Virus record (IMG/VR): IMGVR_UViG_3300025543_000079
Span: 1-37,854 of that record
Origin: a virus
Length of the DNA: 37,854 bases
Strand: one strand, 5' to 3'
Part shown: positions 505 to 37,665 of the stretch, piece after piece
Position numbering within the stretch: the first letter of the stretch is position 1
Layout of the letters: each line of letters begins with the position of its first letter
Position numbers and translations under genes: made by a program
Notes under the pieces: model-generated
Databases searched by the model: none
Told to the model about the DNA's origin: nothing
The model's input: the letters and a program-made list of their open reading frames with translations, nothing else

Positions 505-583
505 TTCAAATAATAAATAGCAAAGGATAGAACCTAAATTGTAGGTCATTCCGCAGTTGCATAATCAATCAACAGGAGAATAC

Positions 584-3031
584 ATGAGAATACTTGAAAT
601 AATGCCAGATTTTCTAAATCAAAAAGAGTTAGAAAAAATAGGTAATGAAAGAGGAAAACATAGGACTAATAAAAGACGTTTGTCTCACATAGAAAGAGAA
701 GACGAAAGTGTTACGTCCTACGGAAAAGTATTAGTAGCTAATCTTATCAGACCATACGCAGAAGCAATAAATGAATGGGTAGCACAAGCGTCATCTAATG
801 TTCATTCTAAAACACCCATAGCCCTCCAAAAAATCTCCCAAATAGAAGACCCAAAAATAACTGCTTTAATAGCCTTGAAGCATATTATGAATACTATAAC
901 GACTACTAAAAATTTAACTGCAACTGCAATTAAGTTAGGTGGTAGAATTGAAACTGAAATTAGTCTTAAAAATTTTAAGAACTTAAACCCAGAGTTATAT
1001 GCAGTAGTTAAAAAAGATTTAGACAAAAGGTCTTTTAACTATGCCTACAAAAGAAGAAAATACAGAGAAGTTGCCAAGAAAGATGAAGTTGTAAGTTGGG
1101 AAGAATGGTCAACTACCGAAAGACTACACACAGGAATGCAATTAATTAGTTTAATGGTAGAAAGTGTAGGACTTATAGAAATTGGTACTGACCAACATAA
1201 GCACAAAACCTTTAAAGTTATAAGGCAAACTGCTTTTACTAGAAAATGGATACAAGACAGAAATAGCTTTAATGAGTTATTAAACCCAGAGTATTTACCT
1301 ATGGTTCTTGCTCCAAAATCAGTCGTAGACGGGCAAGTACAAGGTCATGGGTACTGGACATCAGAAATGCCAGAATTAGACCTTGTTAAGCAACGTGGTA
1401 AGAAATTTACCAATGAGCTAGAAAACCATGACATGCCTGAAGTTACAAGTGCAGTTAATCTAATGCAAAGTACGGCTTATAGGATTAATACCTTTATACT
1501 TGGAGTTATGCAGAATGCTTGGGATAAGTCTCTTTCAATAGGAGGAATGCCACCCATTGAAAACCTAGACATACCACAAAAACCTTACGATATAGATACC
1601 AATAAAGAAGCTCTATTTGAGTATAAGAAAGCCTGTGTAATTGTACACACAGAGAATAACCGTATGTCATCTAAAAGAATGCTTTATGCTAAAATTATAA
1701 ATTTGGCAGAGCAGTTTAAAGAATATGTAACTATGTATTTTCCAATACAGTTAGACTTTAGAGGACGTGCATATTGTGTTCCTGCTTTTCTTAACTATCA
1801 ATCTATTAACGGTGCGAAAGCTCTGTTAAATTTTAGTCAAGGTAAAGCAATCACAAAAGAGAACAGAGGTGTATTTTGGCTATCTGTGCATGGAGCAAAC
1901 ATGTGGGGTAACGACAAAGTATCATTTGAAGATAGAGAAAAATGGACTTATGACAATGCAGATTGGATTAAGGCATGTGCTGAAGACCCTATTGGTAATA
2001 GGCAGTGGGAAGACGCAGACAATGCTTTTCAGTTTTTAGCATTTTGTGATGAATGGAATAGATACACAAAAGAAGGTGATGGATTTATTTCTCATATCCC
2101 AGTTAACGTAGATGGCAGTTGCAATGGTTTGCAAATTTACAGTTTGTTATTAAAAGACAAAGTTGCAGGGTCATTAGTAAACTGTGTGCCTAATGATGTA
2201 CCACAAGACATCTATGGACTTGTGAAAAATGAAGTAGTTAAAAATGCAGAACAAAAATCTGCTGAAGGAGAAGAGTTAGCTACTAAGTGGTTAGACTACG
2301 GTGTTAAAAGGTCTACTTGTAAAAGACCTGTTATGACACTTACTTATGGAAGTACAAGATACGCATGTACTGACTTTGTAGTTGAAGACTTAACTAAAAG
2401 AAAAGACAAAGGAGAAATGCACCCATTTGATGATTTGTTTAAACCATCAACATATTTGTCAAAATTAATTTGGCAATCAATAGGTGAGAACTTAAAATCT
2501 GCAAAAGAAGGAATGAGATATTTGCAGGACATAGCAAAAGTTGTCGCAAAGGAAGGTGTGCCTATACACTGGGTAACTCCAGTAGGTTTTCCTGTTTATC
2601 AATATTACCCAGAAATGAAAAGTAGAAGGGTAGAGACACATTTGATGGGACAGGTAATCCAATCCACAATAAGAGAAGCTAAACCAGAGACTGACAAAAT
2701 GAAACAACGTAATAGTTGTCCTGCTAACTACGTTCACTCGTTAGATAGTGCCTGTATGATTAGGACGGTTAACATTGCAAGAGAAAAAGGAATAGAAAAC
2801 TTTTGTAATGTGCATGATAGTTTTGCAACCCATGCCTGTGATATAGATAAACTTAATGAAAGTATTAGAGAAGCCTTTGTAAGTATTTTCTCTAAAGATT
2901 TACTTTCTGATTTTAAGGCAAAAGTATCAGAGACGTTGTCAGATGAGGCTATAGCTGAACTACCTGAAAGACCTAAAGATGGTGAGCTAGATTTAGATTT
3001 ACTACACAAATGTAAGTATTTCTTTGCCTAA
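584..3031 (+). CDS. T7-like single-subunit DNA-directed RNA polymerase
   Basis: This enzyme transcribes the phage middle and late genes from phage-specific promoters. All polymerase motifs of the T7 gp1 family are present in order: DFRGRAY near residue 391, DGSCNG with the catalytic Asp at 510 (T7 D537), KRPVMTLTYG with Lys580 and Tyr588 (T7 K631 and Y639), NYVHSLDS, and VHDSF with the second catalytic Asp at 745 (T7 D812). The protein ends in Phe-Phe-Ala, close to the FAFA terminus of T7. The length of 815 residues is slightly under T7's 883. I take ATG 584 as the start because AGGAG (574-578) lies just upstream; a TTG at 557 in the same frame has no such site. The likely target promoters are the repeats at 3070, 13737 and 27711. 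Confidence 0.98.
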   Translation: MRILEIMPDFLNQKELEKIGNERGKHRTNKRRLSHIEREDESVTSYGKVLVANLIRPYAEAINEWVAQASSNVHSKTPIALQKISQIEDPKITALIALKHIMNTITTTKNLTATAIKLGGRIETEISLKNFKNLNPELYAVVKKDLDKRSFNYAYKRRKYREVAKKDEVVSWEEWSTTERLHTGMQLISLMVESVGLIEIGTDQHKHKTFKVIRQTAFTRKWIQDRNSFNELLNPEYLPMVLAPKSVVDGQVQGHGYWTSEMPELDLVKQRGKKFTNELENHDMPEVTSAVNLMQSTAYRINTFILGVMQNAWDKSLSIGGMPPIENLDIPQKPYDIDTNKEALFEYKKACVIVHTENNRMSSKRMLYAKIINLAEQFKEYVTMYFPIQLDFRGRAYCVPAFLNYQSINGAKALLNFSQGKAITKENRGVFWLSVHGANMWGNDKVSFEDREKWTYDNADWIKACAEDPIGNRQWEDADNAFQFLAFCDEWNRYTKEGDGFISHIPVNVDGSCNGLQIYSLLLKDKVAGSLVNCVPNDVPQDIYGLVKNEVVKNAEQKSAEGEELATKWLDYGVKRSTCKRPVMTLTYGSTRYACTDFVVEDLTKRKDKGEMHPFDDLFKPSTYLSKLIWQSIGENLKSAKEGMRYLQDIAKVVAKEGVPIHWVTPVGFPVYQYYPEMKSRRVETHLMGQVIQSTIREAKPETDKMKQRNSCPANYVHSLDSACMIRTVNIAREKGIENFCNVHDSFATHACDIDKLNESIREAFVSIFSKDLLSDFKAKVSETLSDEAIAELPERPKDGELDLDLLHKCKYFFA

Positions 3032-32480: not shown

Positions 32481-33920
32481 ATGACAAAAGCTAGAGATAT
32501 AGCTGACTTTAAATTTGAAGATATAGTTGATACTGGTACTGAAGGTACTAAAGTCGCTAGTGGTACGACAGCAGAAAGAGGTAGTACAGCAGGTCAATTA
32601 AGGTTTAACTCTGAAACTGGATTAGCTGAATATTATACTGGTACTGCTTTTAAAAGTATTGATAGTCCACCAACAGTTTCTGGTGTCGGTGCTAGTAATA
32701 TTACAGAAACACAAATTAGTAGTAATTATGATTTATCTATAACTGGTTCTAGTTTTAATTCTGGTGCTACTGTTAAATTTATTGGTGCAAACAATACAGA
32801 ATATGCTAGTCCAACAGTTACAGTAAATTCAGATACCTCAATAACAGCTAGAGTTCCAACTTCAGTTACAAATGCTAATGAACCTTTTAGTGTTAAAGTT
32901 ACAAATACTTCTGGTTTATCAAATACTTTAGGAAGTGCATTTAATGTAGATGCTAAACCTGTTTGGCAAACAGCAAGTGGAAATATAAATAGTAATATTT
33001 TTGATGATGAAAGTTCAAGCACAGTTCACGCAACAGTTTCAGCTACAGATGATGAAGGAGATACTGTAAGTTATTCAGAAGTTACATCAACTTTATCTGG
33101 TGCAGGATTTTCTTTAAATTCTTCTAATGGTCAAATTACTGGTGACCCAAATAATGTTTCTAGCGACACAACAGTTAGTTTTGATTTAAGAGCAACAAGT
33201 GGCACACAAACTACAGATAGAAGTTTTAGCATGACTGTTAAACCAGGATTAATTACAACAGGTTTAACTCACTATTACAATTTTGCTAGTGGATTATCTT
33301 ATTCTGGTTCTGGTTCAACAGTCACAAATTTAATAAGTGGTGGTGATAATGCTTCATTATATAACTCACCTACTTATGACAGTAGCACAGGTACAATGGG
33401 ATTTAATCTATCAGGTTATTCTCAAAGACAATCAATGAGAATACCTACTGTTGATACTAATGTTTATTGTATTCAAATGCTTGTTGAATTTACTGCACAA
33501 AATGATGGTGGTGCTAGAAGTTATATAATGGATGGTAGAGATAATTCTGGTGGTGATGTGTATTGGCTATTTGATTATGATGCAAGTGGTTCTAATCAAT
33601 TTACAATAAACTCTGGTGGTGGAGAACAAAGAACAGCAATTAGTGGTGGTGTTTTAAATTTAGGATATAAAGTTTTTACATTTAATAGACCAAACAATAC
33701 TCTTGATGGATTTATTGATACGACACATATTTTAAATCCAGGTGGTTTAGGTACACAATCCTTACAAAGTCATATTGATTTTATGGATATTGAACGAGGC
33801 AATGGTGATAATGATTATCAAGCTAGAGGAAGAATAAAAGCAATTTTATTTTATGAAACTACATCATTAACAACAGCACAGATAACTCAAAATGTTAATT
33901 ATTTAAAAGCTAAATTCTAA
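32481..33920 (+). CDS. Second tail fibre/adhesin with IPT, PIG-like and LamG-like modules
   Basis: The 479-residue protein starts after AGGAG (about nine bases upstream). Residues 1-60 (TKARDIADF, GSTAGQLRFNSETGLAEYYTG) are a common fibre N-terminal module. Residues about 62-155 resemble IPT/TIG (YDLSITGSSFNSGATVKFIG). Residues about 159-250 are PIG/cadherin-like (VSYSEVTSTLSGAGFSLN). Residues about 258-479 are LamG-like (LTHYYNFASG, MRIPTVDTNVYCIQMLVEF). The IPT-PIG pair is clearly related to the C-terminus of the tail fibre at 27761. It is likely a receptor-binding or surface-adhesion protein. Confidence 0.8.
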   Translation: MTKARDIADFKFEDIVDTGTEGTKVASGTTAERGSTAGQLRFNSETGLAEYYTGTAFKSIDSPPTVSGVGASNITETQISSNYDLSITGSSFNSGATVKFIGANNTEYASPTVTVNSDTSITARVPTSVTNANEPFSVKVTNTSGLSNTLGSAFNVDAKPVWQTASGNINSNIFDDESSSTVHATVSATDDEGDTVSYSEVTSTLSGAGFSLNSSNGQITGDPNNVSSDTTVSFDLRATSGTQTTDRSFSMTVKPGLITTGLTHYYNFASGLSYSGSGSTVTNLISGGDNASLYNSPTYDSSTGTMGFNLSGYSQRQSMRIPTVDTNVYCIQMLVEFTAQNDGGARSYIMDGRDNSGGDVYWLFDYDASGSNQFTINSGGGEQRTAISGGVLNLGYKVFTFNRPNNTLDGFIDTTHILNPGGLGTQSLQSHIDFMDIERGNGDNDYQARGRIKAILFYETTSLTTAQITQNVNYLKAKF

Positions 33921-34159
33921 TGCCTAGAAAAAAAATTACACCAAAAGAATTTAGCGAAGTCGCTACTGGTGTAAGACTTTCATCACATGAGAAACTTTGT
34001 GCTGAACGAATGAATAACATCTTAAAAACTTTAGAAGAAATGAAAAAAGAAGTTAAATCGTTAAGACAAGATGTTTCTATGGGTAAGGGTGGACTTAAAG
34101 TTATCTTAGCTATTGGGACACTTGTAGTTGGAATTATAGGATTTTTTCAGTTTAAATAA
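33920..34159 (+). CDS. Small coiled-coil membrane protein (holin-like)
   Basis: The 79-residue protein has a basic start (MPRKKITPKE), a coiled-coil-like segment (about residues 24-52, MNNILKTLEEMKKEVKSLRQD) and one C-terminal membrane span (about 58-76, LKVILAIGTLVVGIIGFFQF). This layout resembles XhlA-type lysis accessory proteins and small class III-like holins. It opens the lysis cluster right after the fibre genes, where T7 has gp17.5. The next gene overlaps by one base. Confidence 0.7.
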   Translation: MPRKKITPKEFSEVATGVRLSSHEKLCAERMNNILKTLEEMKKEVKSLRQDVSMGKGGLKVILAIGTLVVGIIGFFQFK

Positions 34160-34386
34160 TGCTTTTTAAATACGTGTTGATACTGCATTTGTGTTCATTT
34201 GCAGGGCAACCTCAATGTTACAATCCTAAAGTAATACCTTTAGAGTTTGACACATATTACGATTGTATTCAACAAGGATACCTTAAAGCATCACAAGCAG
34301 TAGAAAATATAGGAACAGATTTAGTTAACAAACAAAAACTTGCAGTCAAATTTGAATGCAAAGAATTAACACAGGAAAAAACATAA
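34159..34386 (+). CDS. Small secreted or lipoprotein-like hypothetical protein, 75 aa
   Basis: I do not recognise a family. The N-terminus (MLFKYVLILHLCSFAG) looks like a signal peptide or membrane anchor. The mature part contains three Cys (Cys20, Cys36 and a late FECKEL Cys), suggesting a periplasmic disulfide protein or, if Cys12 is lipidated, a lipoprotein. In a lysis cluster this could be a spanin-type component. It overlaps both neighbours by one base. Confidence 0.65.
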   Translation: MLFKYVLILHLCSFAGQPQCYNPKVIPLEFDTYYDCIQQGYLKASQAVENIGTDLVNKQKLAVKFECKELTQEKT

Positions 34387-34517
34387 TGATGATATTTGGA
34401 CAAAACCCTCAAACATATATTAACAAAGCTAAAATATGGTACATGAATACAGATAAAAAAATTGTAGCTTTAATAATATGGTCAGCTTTATTATTTTTAA
34501 TAGGATATGCTCTTTAG
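34386..34517 (+). CDS. 43-aa predicted single-span membrane protein
   Basis: The frame starts ATG-ATG in a TAATG overlap with the preceding gene and runs 11 bases into the next. Residues 1-25 are polar with basic residues (NKAKIWYMNTDKK), and residues 26-43 are a hydrophobic span (IVALIIWSALLFLIGYAL) at the very end. The layout is like small holins or antiholins. No family is recognised. Confidence 0.6.
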   Translation: MMIFGQNPQTYINKAKIWYMNTDKKIVALIIWSALLFLIGYAL

Positions 34518-34836
34518 TTTATTAGGTAAAACTTTAATTAGTCATACAACAAAAGCACTTTCAACACATTTAGAAAAAAGAGGCAACAAACAAGTTGCTG
34601 AAATTGAAGCTAGTAAAGAAGTACAAAAAACTCAAATAGAAAATTCAGGAATAAAAGACGAATTAATTTTGATTTGGTTTTTAGGAATACTTACACTCCC
34701 TTTAATAGGAGAAACAGAAAGATTTATGAAGTGGGCTGAAGTTTTATCAGCTATGCCTTCTGAATTATTTTATATTTTTGGTGCTATCGTAGCGGCATCA
34801 TTTGGAATTAAAGTCTCAAGCATATTCAAAAAATGA
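34507..34836 (+). CDS. Holin, GTA-type 3TM family-like
   Basis: The 109-residue protein has an amphipathic N-terminus (LLGKTLISHTTKALSTHL), a charged linker (KQVAEIEASKEVQKTQIEN), then membrane spans at about residues 51-68 (ELILIWFLGILTLPLIG) and 86-104 (SELFYIFGAIVAASFGIKV). This matches the pattern of the holin family described for gene-transfer-agent release. It would permeabilise the membrane and release the GH24 endolysin at 37246. The start overlaps the previous gene by 11 bases. Confidence 0.78.
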   Translation: MLFSLLGKTLISHTTKALSTHLEKRGNKQVAEIEASKEVQKTQIENSGIKDELILIWFLGILTLPLIGETERFMKWAEVLSAMPSELFYIFGAIVAASFGIKVSSIFKK

Positions 34837-34991
34837 TAGATAGATTTTTCTACGCATTCTTTGGAGGTATCGACAACATCTTTATAAAATTAAACAAAAC
34901 TGTAGACGACCTATGGACGTTTAAGTTTCCTAATTCAAAATCTAAAAAATATGAGAGACATAAAAAAATTAACAGAGTTCATAAAAAATAA
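34833..34991 (+). CDS. 52-aa hypothetical protein downstream of holin
   Basis: The ATG overlaps the holin stop (ATGA). The protein has an aromatic N-terminal half (MIDRFFYAFFGGIDNIFIKL), possibly a short amphipathic membrane-binding helix, and a very basic C-terminal half (KFPNSKSKKYERHKKINRVH). No family is recognised. It overlaps the next small frame by 41 bases in another register, so at least one of the two is weakly supported. Confidence 0.5.
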   Translation: MIDRFFYAFFGGIDNIFIKLNKTVDDLWTFKFPNSKSKKYERHKKINRVHKK

Positions 34992-35115
34992 AGAACATAA
35001 AGATAAAGAAATGAACTTGTTTAAAAATCTTAAAAAAGAAGTTTCAATTAACGCGAATGGAACTCGAGAATACGTAATAAAAAAAGGTATTAACAAAGGA
35101 AAAATAGCTAAATGA
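34951..35115 (+). CDS. 54-aa lysine-rich hypothetical protein
   Basis: This frame begins inside the preceding one and its stop overlaps the next start (ATGA at 35112). It is rich in Lys (about 17 of 54) and predicted helical at first. No clear ribosome site is visible. The ATGA junction with the following gene favours real translation. Function unknown. Confidence 0.45.
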   Translation: MRDIKKLTEFIKNKEHKDKEMNLFKNLKKEVSINANGTREYVIKKGINKGKIAK

Positions 35116-35297
35116 AAAAAGAACATAATACAATGCTTATTGGTGTATTAGGTGCAATTCTTTTAGGAATTTCTAGTTGGGTACTAATGACTATCGTAGA
35201 ACTTGAGGTTCATATAGGAATGTTAAGCGAAGAGATTATGTCAATGGATAAACAGATTGGCAGAATTTATAATCACATGGATAGGCTATCTAAATAA
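35112..35297 (+). CDS. 61-aa membrane protein with C-terminal helix (spanin-like layout)
   Basis: A membrane span at about residues 8-29 (MLIGVLGAILLGISSWVLMTIV) follows a short basic start. The remainder (ELEVHIGMLSEEIMSMDKQI) is a periodic helix that could form a coiled coil in the periplasm. That is the layout of an inner-membrane spanin, though short for one, or of a holin regulator. It lies just before the terminase genes, where T7 has its spanin genes 18.5/18.7 nearby. No family is recognised. Confidence 0.6.
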   Translation: MKKEHNTMLIGVLGAILLGISSWVLMTIVELEVHIGMLSEEIMSMDKQIGRIYNHMDRLSK

Positions 35298-35419
35298 TGA
35301 AAACAGCAAAATCGTATGTACCTAGAGAAAAACCTAAAAAAAGAAAAGGAATACATGTCAAGTCAAGAAACAAAGGAAGTACCTTTAAAAAATACAACGG
35401 ACAAGGAAGACCAAAGTAA
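35297..35419 (+). CDS. 40-aa highly basic protein before TerS
   Basis: The start overlaps the previous stop by one base (TAATG). The 40 residues include about 16 Lys or Arg and only one acidic residue (REKPKKRKGIHVKSRNKGST). It overlaps the start of TerS by 65 bases in a different frame. The composition suggests nucleic-acid binding, perhaps in packaging, but no family is recognised with certainty. Confidence 0.55.
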   Translation: MKTAKSYVPREKPKKRKGIHVKSRNKGSTFKKYNGQGRPK

Positions 35420-35615
35420 TTTAGAAACAATAATAAAAGAGTTACCTCAATTATTAGTAACTCATTCTTATAACAAGTTAAAATCTGGTGACGAACTAAC
35501 AGCTTCAGAGATGAAAGTTTGTCTTGAGATATGTAAACAATATTCAAAAGACCCTATTGCTAAAAAAGAAGTAAACCTTTTAGATAGTGTACCTTTTGAT
35601 ACCCCAGAGGATTAA
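35355..35615 (+). CDS. Terminase small subunit, T7 gp18-like
   Basis: I chose ATG 35355 because AAAGGA lies about six bases upstream; an in-frame ATG at 35316 would add 13 Lys-rich residues inside the overlapping gene. The resulting 86 residues match T7 gp18 (89) in size. NLETIIKELPQLLVTHSYNKLKSGDELTASEMKVC is helical and DELTASEM resembles the T-A-x-x-L/M segment common in T7-type small terminases. The next gene is TerL, overlapping by one base. The subunit recognises concatemer DNA and stimulates TerL. Confidence 0.8.
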   Translation: MSSQETKEVPLKNTTDKEDQSNLETIIKELPQLLVTHSYNKLKSGDELTASEMKVCLEICKQYSKDPIAKKEVNLLDSVPFDTPED

Positions 35616-37246
35616 TGGATAAACGAATTAATAACTTTAAGAACTTTTTGTTCTTATGTTGGAAACATTTAAACTTACCAGAGCCAACACCCATTCAATA
35701 TGACATTGCAGACTTTCTTCAATCAAAAGAAAAAAGAATTGTAATAGAAGCATTCAGAGGTGTAGGTAAATCTTGGATTACTTCGGCATACGTATGCCAC
35801 CAGTTACTACTAAACCCTCAAAGAAACATATTAGTAGTATCTGCAAGTAAAACTAGAGCAGATGATTTCAGTACGTTTACACAAAGGTTAATCTCAGAGA
35901 TGCCTATGTTACAACACCTAATACCTAGAGATAACCAAAGACATTCAAAGATTAGCTTTGATGTTGCACCTGCTACAGCCAGTCATGCACCCTCAGTTAA
36001 GTCTATGGGTATTTCTGGTCAGATGACAGGTTCAAGAGCTGATATTATCATTGCAGATGACGTTGAGAGTGCGAATAACTCCCAAACACAGCTTATGAGA
36101 GACAGGTTGTCAGAAACAGTTAAAGAATTTGATGCAATTATTAAACCTGAAATTGGTAGAACTATATTTCTAGGAACACCTCAGAATGAGATGTCATTGT
36201 ACAACTCACTAGGTGAAAGAGGATTTAAGACAAAAATCTGGACAGCATTAGTACCTAATAAAACTCAGACAATCTCTTATGGAGATAAGTTAGCAAGTAT
36301 TATTAAAGGTGTTGAAGGTGAGCCTACAGACCCTAAAAGATTTGATGCTACAGACTTAATGGAACGATTAGCTTCGTATGGTCGTTCAGGGTTTAACTTA
36401 CAATTTATGTTGGACACTTCATTGTCTGATGCAAATAGATACCCTCTAAAATTAAACGACTTAATAATAGCTTCAGGTTGTTCAACTTGGAAAGAAGCAC
36501 CTGCAAAGATACAATGGGCTTCTTCACCAGAACAAATGAAAGCTATAGACCCAGACATTCCCAATGTGGGACTTAAAGGAGATTACTTTGTAGCTCCTAT
36601 GTATATGTCTGAAGAGTTTACTCCGTTTGAAGGTACATGTATGTCTATTGACCCATCAGGTAGAGGAGAAGATAAAACTGCTTATGCAGTCTTAAAAATG
36701 CTTCATGGAGTTCTATATTTGACTGCACAAGGTAGTCTTGAAGGTGGATACTCAGATACAACTATGGCTAGGTTATCAAATATTGCTAAGAAGCATGATG
36801 TTAACTATGTAGTCATTGAGAGTAACTTTGGTGATGGTATGGCAACTCAGTTGTTAAAACCTATCATGGCTAAGATACACCCATGTGAGATTGAAGAAGT
36901 TAGACATAATACACAGAAAGAAAAGCGGATAATAGATACACTAGAGCCTTTAATGAATAGTCATAGGTTAGTAGTAGATGATTTACTAATACACGAAGAT
37001 TTTAAGAATGAACCAGACCATCAGTTGTTTAGACAAATGACAAGGCTTACAAGAGACAAAGGTTCACTTAGACATGATGATGCCATAGACGCATTAGCCA
37101 TGTGTGCTAAATATTGGACAGATAGGTTAGATAGAGACCAAACCTTATCTTACAATCAGCACAAAGAAGATTTGATTAATCAAGATTTAGAGAAATTCAT
37201 GGAAGGAACAATAGGAAGACACCCAACCAAAGAAAGGTTTATATAA
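35615..37246 (+). CDS. Terminase large subunit, T7 gp19-like
   Basis: This is the ATP-driven packaging motor and nuclease. Walker A is FRGVGKSW (GVGKS at residues 49-53), Walker B IIIADDVES near 146, and the coupling segment FLGTPQNEMS near 189. The RNase H-like nuclease has MSIDPSGRGEDKT near 341, VVIESNFGDG near 402 and LRHDDAIDAL near 485, which supply the metal-binding acids. The length is 543 versus 586 in T7. It is the best phylogenetic marker in the window together with RNA polymerase. Confidence 0.97.
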   Translation: MDKRINNFKNFLFLCWKHLNLPEPTPIQYDIADFLQSKEKRIVIEAFRGVGKSWITSAYVCHQLLLNPQRNILVVSASKTRADDFSTFTQRLISEMPMLQHLIPRDNQRHSKISFDVAPATASHAPSVKSMGISGQMTGSRADIIIADDVESANNSQTQLMRDRLSETVKEFDAIIKPEIGRTIFLGTPQNEMSLYNSLGERGFKTKIWTALVPNKTQTISYGDKLASIIKGVEGEPTDPKRFDATDLMERLASYGRSGFNLQFMLDTSLSDANRYPLKLNDLIIASGCSTWKEAPAKIQWASSPEQMKAIDPDIPNVGLKGDYFVAPMYMSEEFTPFEGTCMSIDPSGRGEDKTAYAVLKMLHGVLYLTAQGSLEGGYSDTTMARLSNIAKKHDVNYVVIESNFGDGMATQLLKPIMAKIHPCEIEEVRHNTQKEKRIIDTLEPLMNSHRLVVDDLLIHEDFKNEPDHQLFRQMTRLTRDKGSLRHDDAIDALAMCAKYWTDRLDRDQTLSYNQHKEDLINQDLEKFMEGTIGRHPTKERFI

Positions 37247-37665
37247 TGGACTTAGAACAGACTAAAAAAGAGATTAAAAAAGAAGAAGGTTTCCGTATGG
37301 AAGTCTATAAAGATACTCTAGGTTTTAAAACAGGTGGCTATGGTCATAAAATGTTAGAGGGTGAGATACCTCCTACAGACATAGCAGGGTGGAATAAACT
37401 CTTTGAAAGAGACTTTGCTCGTGCTGTAACAGGTGCGGAAGATGTCCTTATGTTATGTCCCAATATCCACGACACTGCTAGACATATAGTGGTTGAGATG
37501 TGTTATCAGATGGGTGCTTATGGGGTCTCTAAGTTTAAGGGTATGCTTAAAGCTCTACAAGATGAGGACTATAAGACTGCCAGTGTGGAGATGCTAGATA
37601 GTCTATGGGCTAAACAGACACCCAATCGTGCTAACCGCATGTCTGAACGCATGGCAAATATTTAA
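37246..37665 (+). CDS. Endolysin, T4-type lysozyme (GH24)
   Basis: The 139-residue enzyme cleaves the glycan backbone of peptidoglycan. The catalytic triad of T4 lysozyme (E11, D20, T26) is present with exact spacing: Glu14, Asp23 and Thr29 in EEGFRMEVYKDTLGFKT. GYGHKM follows, and the C-terminal WAKQTPNRANRM matches the T4 QTPNRAKR segment. No signal peptide is visible, so export depends on the holin. It lies after TerL with a one-base overlap, unlike T7, whose gp3.5 amidase lies among the early genes. Confidence 0.93.
   Translation: MDLEQTKKEIKKEEGFRMEVYKDTLGFKTGGYGHKMLEGEIPPTDIAGWNKLFERDFARAVTGAEDVLMLCPNIHDTARHIVVEMCYQMGAYGVSKFKGMLKALQDEDYKTASVEMLDSLWAKQTPNRANRMSERMANI

Follow-up and report, generated by a model that had tools for sequence, protein, structure and literature searches.

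Introduction

Two-component spanins, such as lambda Rz/Rz1 and T7 gp18.5/gp18.7, have an outer-membrane lipoprotein partner as their defining part. In the relevant passages of a survey of 677 phages, 91 were without a spanin, and how these breach the outer membrane was left open (PMC6139136); the word Pelagibacter is absent from the main text of that survey. One later answer to the outer-membrane step in a spanin-less phage is, in the passages that describe it, the disruptin of phiKT, a short amphipathic helix peptide (PMC12819732). The locus described here resembles the two-component spanins in having small late genes between holin and TerL, in a T7-like order. It resembles the phiKT case as a podophage locus in which no spanin is recognised and the lysis region contains short cationic frames, and it resembles holin/antiholin pairs in that a tiny, co-conserved single-span gene stands just before the putative holin.

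The window, that is, the whole stretch of DNA analysed, is an entire virus record of 37,854 bases (IMG/VR record IMGVR_UViG_3300025543_000079), possibly a fragment whose ends may be missing; Pelagivirus relatives have records of about 40-43 kb. Its TerL is 91.3% identical to that of S35-C6 and 90.4% identical to that of HTVC019P, and the window is classed by sequence as an HTVC019P-type pelagiphage, a virus of SAR11 bacteria. The gene names X79, S75, T43, HOL, B52, K54, M61, R40, CC121, C70 and R93 were coined in this analysis.

Table 1. Features of the window, and the two genes that relatives carry in its place of M61
Feature	Coordinates	Strand	Description
RNA polymerase (by position)	557..3031	+	
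X79	33920..34159	+	79 aa; heptads, then C-terminal span; first gene of the block
S75	34159..34386	+	75 aa; four conserved cysteines; phrog_19893, 4.9e-36
T43	34386..34517	+	43 aa; basic N-terminus, one C-terminal span; putative holin partner
HOL (putative holin)	34507..34836	+	109 aa; phrog_2524, 2.5e-8 (unknown function)
B52	34833..34991	+	52 aa; amphipathic N-terminus, Lys-rich tail, net +8
K54	34951..35115	+	54 aa; net +9; conserved ANGTxxYVIKKGINKGK; phrog_32989, 5.7e-32
M61	35112..35297	+	61 aa; N-terminal span and four-heptad coiled-coil pattern; phrog_33111, 2.8e-35
R40	35297..35419	+	40 aa; net +14; KKYNxQGR-like end; phrog_17967, 9.1e-8
TerS (putative small terminase subunit)	35355..35615	+	ORF listed from 35316; relatives start at MSSQE
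TerL (large terminase subunit)	35615..37246	+	identity to S35-C6 and HTVC019P
Lysozyme (probable endolysin)	37246..37665	+	Pfam PF00959, 2.3e-8, 34.8 bits against a cut-off of 22.3
CC121			121 aa; span and long helical part; with C70 before R40 in relatives
C70			70 aa; two conserved cysteines

The small frames are genes

The first-pass annotation had listed five short frames starting at 34386, 34833, 34951, 35112 and 35297, and all five are present at these coordinates. Their placement between holin and terminase fails for the first, T43, which is upstream of the putative holin; its ORF was listed from 34356, and relatives support the start at 34386. Most of the frames had been said to be linked by TAATG or ATGA, as was confirmed at the junctions: S75/T43 and M61/R40 share TAATG, HOL/B52 and K54/M61 share ATGA, and T43/HOL and B52/K54 overlap by 11 nt and 41 nt, respectively. 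The two proteins described as single-span have one hydrophobic span each (KD peaks 2.22 and 2.25), and the three described as very basic carry net charges of +8, +9 and +14.

The 1,034 bases concerned are fully (100%) covered by six ATG ORFs of at least 40 aa. When 5,000 sequences were simulated with a first-order Markov model, the mean was 0.36 such ORFs and none of the 5,000 had six or full coverage. Frame conservation and synonymous bias were then evaluated as pN/pS, using homologue pairs with 70-97% nucleotide identity and at least 5 changes. The values were 0.33 in frame and 0.62/0.74 in the shifted frames for T43, 0.40 and 1.23/1.21 for B52 (the weakest selection among the five), 0.32 and 1.22/1.21 for K54, 0.22 and 0.83/2.9 for M61, and 0.33 and 1.04/1.07 for R40, all to be taken as a guide because the pairs lack independence, B52 overlaps K54 and R40 overlaps TerS, and an upstream extension that overlaps the preceding gene is included in some of the rows for T43. 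The in-frame range is thus 0.22-0.40, with higher values in both shifted frames. The frames are intact across the close group rather than broken in close relatives. The five small frames are genuine protein-coding genes under purifying selection.

The expectation that four of the five would be too short for standard callers was partly borne out, as isolate records annotate several and miss others. The HTVC131P record has four as CDS (gp52, gp54, gp55 and gp56) and misses R40; the HTVC019P record annotates gp51, gp53 and gp56 as hypothetical, contains R40 and misses B52; R40 is included in the HTVC022P record and missed in that of HTVC304P. Likewise, the genes are undescribed as to function but not as to existence, since isolate records list them as hypothetical proteins and K54, M61 and R40, three of the five, match PHROG families of unknown function. 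B52 matched no PHROG family, and T43 had no PHROG or Pfam match at E<=1.

The start of TerS is most likely 35355, not 35316, as judged from the HTVC304P and HTVC201P starts, and the overlap with R40 is then 65 nt. TerS had no PHROG or Pfam family match at E<=0.1; its identity rests on position and on the labels of same-position genes in other records.

Gene order and distribution in SAR11 phages

The usual Pelagivirus order is X79, S75, T43, HOL, B52, K54 (if present), the slot occupied by M61 in the window, R40, TerS, TerL and lysozyme. A set of 76 loci was compared from HOL to TerS, the window included and near-copies present (68 different TerL sequences; HTVC019P three times). X79 was found in 73 of these, T43 in 71, B52 in 70, K54 in 32 and R40 in 74.

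In the window itself the lysozyme lies 2.4 kb downstream of the putative holin. In HTVC119P (L092) and HTVC200P (L109) the lysozyme is within the block, between T43 and HOL and adjoining the latter, and in HTVC100P a putative M15 peptidase, a different endolysin, directly precedes HOL, which is followed by R40, B52, K54 and M61 in that order. These three arrangements and two endolysin types indicate that the block belongs with lysis genes. Mostly, but not always, it adjoins genes for holin and endolysin, in SAR11 phages that belong to Autographiviridae as well as in others. RNA-seq of HTVC022P, in the part of the report on time classes, showed genes of each class to be adjacent (PMC12753301).

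In tblastn searches against 50,697 phage records, M61 was found at E<=0.01 in 20 records, all Pelagibacter phages, and K54 in 23 (22 Pelagibacter and 1 uncultured). At E<=1, R40 was found in 23 records, all Pelagibacter, T43 in 24 (21 Pelagibacter and 3 uncultured) and B52 in 19 (18 Pelagibacter and 1 uncultured). Among phages with no family named in their records, one to several of the small genes are present in HTVC100P, HTVC204P, Greip, Lederberg, HTVC112P, Baldr and Kolga. Furthermore, M61 of the window and of HTVC011P are 85% identical, while the TerL proteins of the same pair are 54% identical. Since the small genes are carried beyond the family of the window, they are SAR11-phage genes moving between distant phages. 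Cross-family transfers of curli and other genes have been reported, in passages on transfers that do not name this block (PMC9599517).

Two of the genes also travel separately. In Kolga, K54 is among hypothetical genes between the putative capsid gene and the tail genes, and R40, encoded on the opposite strand, has a thymidylate synthase gene nearby and is 6.5 kb away from the lysozyme; in HTVC027P, K54 is upstream of the GroES and capsid genes. As both occur outside lysis regions, a role dedicated to lysis or packaging is less likely for them; neither K54 nor R40 is specific to lysis. K54 has 18 invariant columns in 23 rows, and its fold model is one long helix with low confidence toward the C-terminus. 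R40 is nearly all basic. Both may be nucleic-acid- or ribosome-binding proteins riding in the operon.

R93, a basic family of 83-93 aa, is found behind the slot in HTVC100P, HTVC204P, Greip, Lederberg and HTVC010P and is present in HTVC027P as well (loci L096, L097, L098, L101, L104 and L105).

M61 and CC121+C70 are mutually exclusive

Among the 76 loci, M61 is present in 32 and CC121 with C70 in 41; none has both and three have neither. In one of the 41 (L015), CC121 is split into two frames. Additional loci were fetched by M61 (best 80 of 399 matches) or by CC121 (best 80 of at least 565), giving 70 and 78 new locus identifiers, respectively, of which at least 6 and at least 2 are on contigs already in the set. 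All 70 fetched by M61 were without CC121, all 78 fetched by CC121 were without M61, and 76 of these 78 had C70 nearby. Because many fetched loci end at contig ends, whole records were also searched: in 21 with M61 and 18 with CC121, the other gene was found in none, a result that is weak on its own in a hand-chosen set made up in part of possible fragments and that stands beside matches of the same queries in 4 of 14 and 1 of 17 records. M61 and CC121+C70 are mutually exclusive in all records examined. This pattern was newly observed here; most of the genes were already known as hypothetical proteins of isolates. The proteins match PHROG families 33111 (M61), 32989 (K54), 17967 (R40), 20984 (CC121) and 24646 (C70), but these families carry neither a function nor a record of exclusion.

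On a TerL tree, made by a quick method with one kind of support value and containing two long rows of unsure placement, the distribution of CC121 needs 10 changes and that of M61 needs 11, equal to the number forced by the starred branches. On this tree, M61 and CC121+C70 have switched repeatedly, with at least 10 switches.

The alternation extends beyond Autographiviridae: HTVC010P and three phages of like gene order differ at this place, CC121 and C70 lying between R40 and R93 in HTVC010P, with M61 in that position in HTVC100P and near R93 in Greip and Lederberg. Neither set was found in HTVC201P, HTVC204P and one IMG/VR genome. Compared with HTVC304P, HTVC201P (L085:1497-1520) has lost M61 with its last codons remaining, so M61 is dispensable there. 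The host was considered as the cause of the swap and rejected; HTVC201P and HTVC204P infect FZCC0015, but so does HTVC200P, which has CC121+C70.

In Kolga and Baldr, M61 is accompanied by another protein with a span and a helix (111 or 108 aa), and M61 is therefore no stand-in for every such protein. Comparison of the Baldr 108-aa protein with CC121 gave an hhalign probability of 20.5% (E 0.0011); if the two are homologous, Baldr is an exception to the exclusion. The profiles of M61 and CC121 showed no likeness (hhalign probability 5.7%). A common origin was also considered for S75 and C70 (0.8%) and for M61 and X79 (10.1%) and was left unproved by these hhalign probabilities.

The exclusion suggests two interchangeable solutions to one task, probably the bursting of the host cell, although the pattern itself names no task. 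The possibility was considered that M61 and CC121+C70 are unrelated to lysis: they would be membrane proteins made late that serve superinfection exclusion or remodel the envelope, placed where small genes accumulate. Frequent swapping is typical of accessory genes, the neighbours K54 and R40 are found outside lysis regions, and in Kolga M61 ends a rightward operon after the tail-fibre genes, about 14 kb from the lysozyme. However, M61 is beside holin, X79 or S75 in many contexts, including outside Autographiviridae, and accessory genes should sometimes co-occur, which none did in the records examined. A role apart from lysis is considered rather doubtful.

Predicted properties of M61 and CC121

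The membrane span of M61, with its hydrophobic peak from residue 8, runs straight into nine hydrophobic a/d positions from L31 to L59, and none of 20,000 column shuffles was as regular. Eleven of the 61 positions are invariant and 15 near-invariant. The basic N-terminus, judged by eye with the positive-inside rule, suggests an N-in, C-out orientation, the topology of an i-spanin. The coiled coil of about 30 residues is short and could not span the periplasm alone. No related solved structure was found at E<=1. For CC121, 49 of 20,000 shuffles scored as high as the far part, which is regular, against 6,626 of 20,000 for the near part, which is not. A "virion structural protein" family was weakly matched by 5 of 8 CC121 members (best 0.0011).

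M61 was also considered as a SAR11 chromosomal gene. A genome collection gave four matches, provisionally read as phage DNA: three are on contigs of 3-9 kb, and the fourth, with X79, S75, K54 and TerL as neighbours, is in an assembly from Pelagibacteraceae. A 107-kb contig of the uncultured Pelagibacteraceae assembly AG-333-N15 (L258:4440-5766 and beyond) carries X79, S75, M61, K54 and TerL and would be prophage or phage DNA.

Comparison with spanins and disruptins

All frames of the window were scanned with a pattern of our own for a lipobox behind a signal-like start. On the + strand there was one pass, inside the RNA polymerase frame, and on the - strand there were four, each antisense to a long gene and outside the block; no credible lipoprotein gene was found in the window. 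As a control, T7 gp18.7 was the sole + strand pass in 5.9 kb of T7. When 94 loci of relatives were scanned, five passes were obtained upstream of TerL, of which four are pieces of X79 and one (L056) looks real. The latter is a lipoprotein-like frame of 66 aa with a good lipobox, 1284 bases before TerL, and is a possible true o-spanin in one phage.

The complete relatives HTVC131P, HTVC019P, HTVC011P and Kolga gave 2, 1, 1 and 0 passes on the + strand, none of them in the block, and 8, 9, 4 and 2 on the - strand, including one antisense in the block in each of HTVC019P and Kolga. One + strand pass of HTVC131P is an unannotated 54-aa frame after the lysozyme, and none is there in HTVC019P. This frame was taken as a chance pass; the window may not extend to the corresponding end.

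In the absence of a credible lipoprotein gene in the window, a canonical two-component spanin fails on its defining feature, and a unimolecular spanin, with a lipobox at the N-terminus and a C-terminal span, likewise finds no credible lipoprotein frame there. For both M61 and CC121 the predicted topology is that of a type II inner-membrane protein with a helical part in the periplasm, like that of i-spanins, but M61 has only 61 aa with about 30 periplasmic residues, C70 is without a lipobox, and there was no significant Rz sequence match. The best match of M61 to the Rz families was to phrog_739 at E 0.019, with only 4 of 23 members at E<=0.1 and no Pfam Rz match; for CC121 it was 1 of 8 members at E 0.098. 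X79 scored 0.2 against PF03245, below the family cut-off. The first-pass annotation had offered spanins, antiholins or packaging accessories as roles for the small genes. The holin and endolysin company in three arrangements and the predicted i-spanin topology of M61 speak for this list; the lack of a lipoprotein partner in the window and the occurrence of K54 and R40 outside lysis regions speak against it.

An alternative is that B52 acts like a disruptin, a cationic amphipathic peptide disrupting the outer membrane, with M61 being secondary. Its short length, charge, amphipathic moment of 0.51 and presence in 70 of 76 loci would suit such a peptide, as would the lack of a credible lipoprotein in the window and the precedent of phiKT in the part of that report describing the disruptin (PMC12819732). 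The amphipathic part of B52, however, is not cationic, its charge being in the tail, unlike LL-37-type peptides and unlike the phiKT disruptin; B52 is under the weakest selection of the five genes and was not found in 6 of 76 loci. That B52 is the principal outer-membrane agent is quite improbable. Among B52 and its relatives, of which 49 were aligned, the tails are Lys-rich or, in some relatives, consist of Cys/Lys repeats such as KCKCKGKCKCK, with a possible metal or disulfide role.

Proposed role of the block

On the reading tentatively preferred, at somewhat less than an even chance, M61 and CC121/C70 replace one another as inner-membrane accessories of lysis in a system that does without a lipoprotein; their role would be like that of spanins, which by definition they are not. 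T43 would sit with the holin in the inner membrane and tune it. M61, or CC121 with C70, would be anchored in the inner membrane and oligomerise through a coiled coil in the periplasm; after the wall has been cut by the lysozyme, it would help to breach the outer membrane without the usual lipoprotein. The amphipathic, cationic chain of B52 could assist in this breach.

HOL has at least one membrane span (hydrophobic peak 1.77), and its 109-, 117- and 125-aa forms are united by one profile family. It matched no curated holin family, no Pfam family at E<=1 and, among PHROG families, only phrog_2524. The DUF3154 label comes from one depositor, who gave it in AP013545 to the gene lying where the B52 match starts. 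T43 adjoins HOL in 70 of 76 loci; it differs from described holin/antiholin pairs in being a separate gene with no dual start and in having no family match.

This association with HOL bears on another possibility, that M61 and CC121+C70 are alternative antiholins or regulators of lysis timing, coiled coils anchored in the membrane that would postpone triggering by binding to holin or T43. In all 76 loci the slot falls between holin and TerS, as it must by the choice of loci, and M61 is small and highly conserved, as would be expected with a fixed partner. The loss of M61 in HTVC201P also suits a regulator better than an essential part. However, M61 is not bound to one holin subtype, as it occurs with the 109-, 117- and 125-aa forms, no antiholin family was matched, and the only holin-family frame of HTVC011P is about 18 kb from M61. 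Regulation of the holin by these proteins thus appears unlikely, while deserving some weight. The preferred reading as lysis accessories can be widened to the proposal that SAR11 phages of different families share one lipoprotein-free system for outer-membrane breach (or lysis timing), its inner-membrane part existing in two non-homologous, exclusive editions exchanged as cassettes; this is more doubtful again.

The exclusion pattern points to two small gene sets that are directly usable in the existing spanin-null lambda test. In the literature on pelagiphage or SAR11 lysis, holins, spanins and outer-membrane disruption, covered as titles and abstract openings with few subscription papers, the block is unmentioned.

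X79 and S75

The cysteines C12, C20, C36 and C67 of S75 are invariant in 47 of 47 sequences; in a 35-row alignment the first is shifted and not invariant. An AlphaFold2 model has a b-b-a-b fold (pLDDT 79). A structure search with S75 returned three viral proteins at E<=0.001 and no PDB match at that threshold, the best VIA Z being 4.9, to PaaB. S75 might be a secreted regulator like T4 RI, but its hydrophobic N-terminus is modelled as a strand. C70 may share the layout of S75, although the profiles do not match.

X79 matched phrog_37133 (3.3e-52) and, distantly, the hemolysin family phrog_1193 (4.6e-4), which we take to be XhlA-like. Its heptad contrast was not equalled in regularity by any of 20,000 shuffles. 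X79 of the window is 94% identical to the HTVC011P copy, against 54% for TerL, pointing to either recent exchange or strong constraint.
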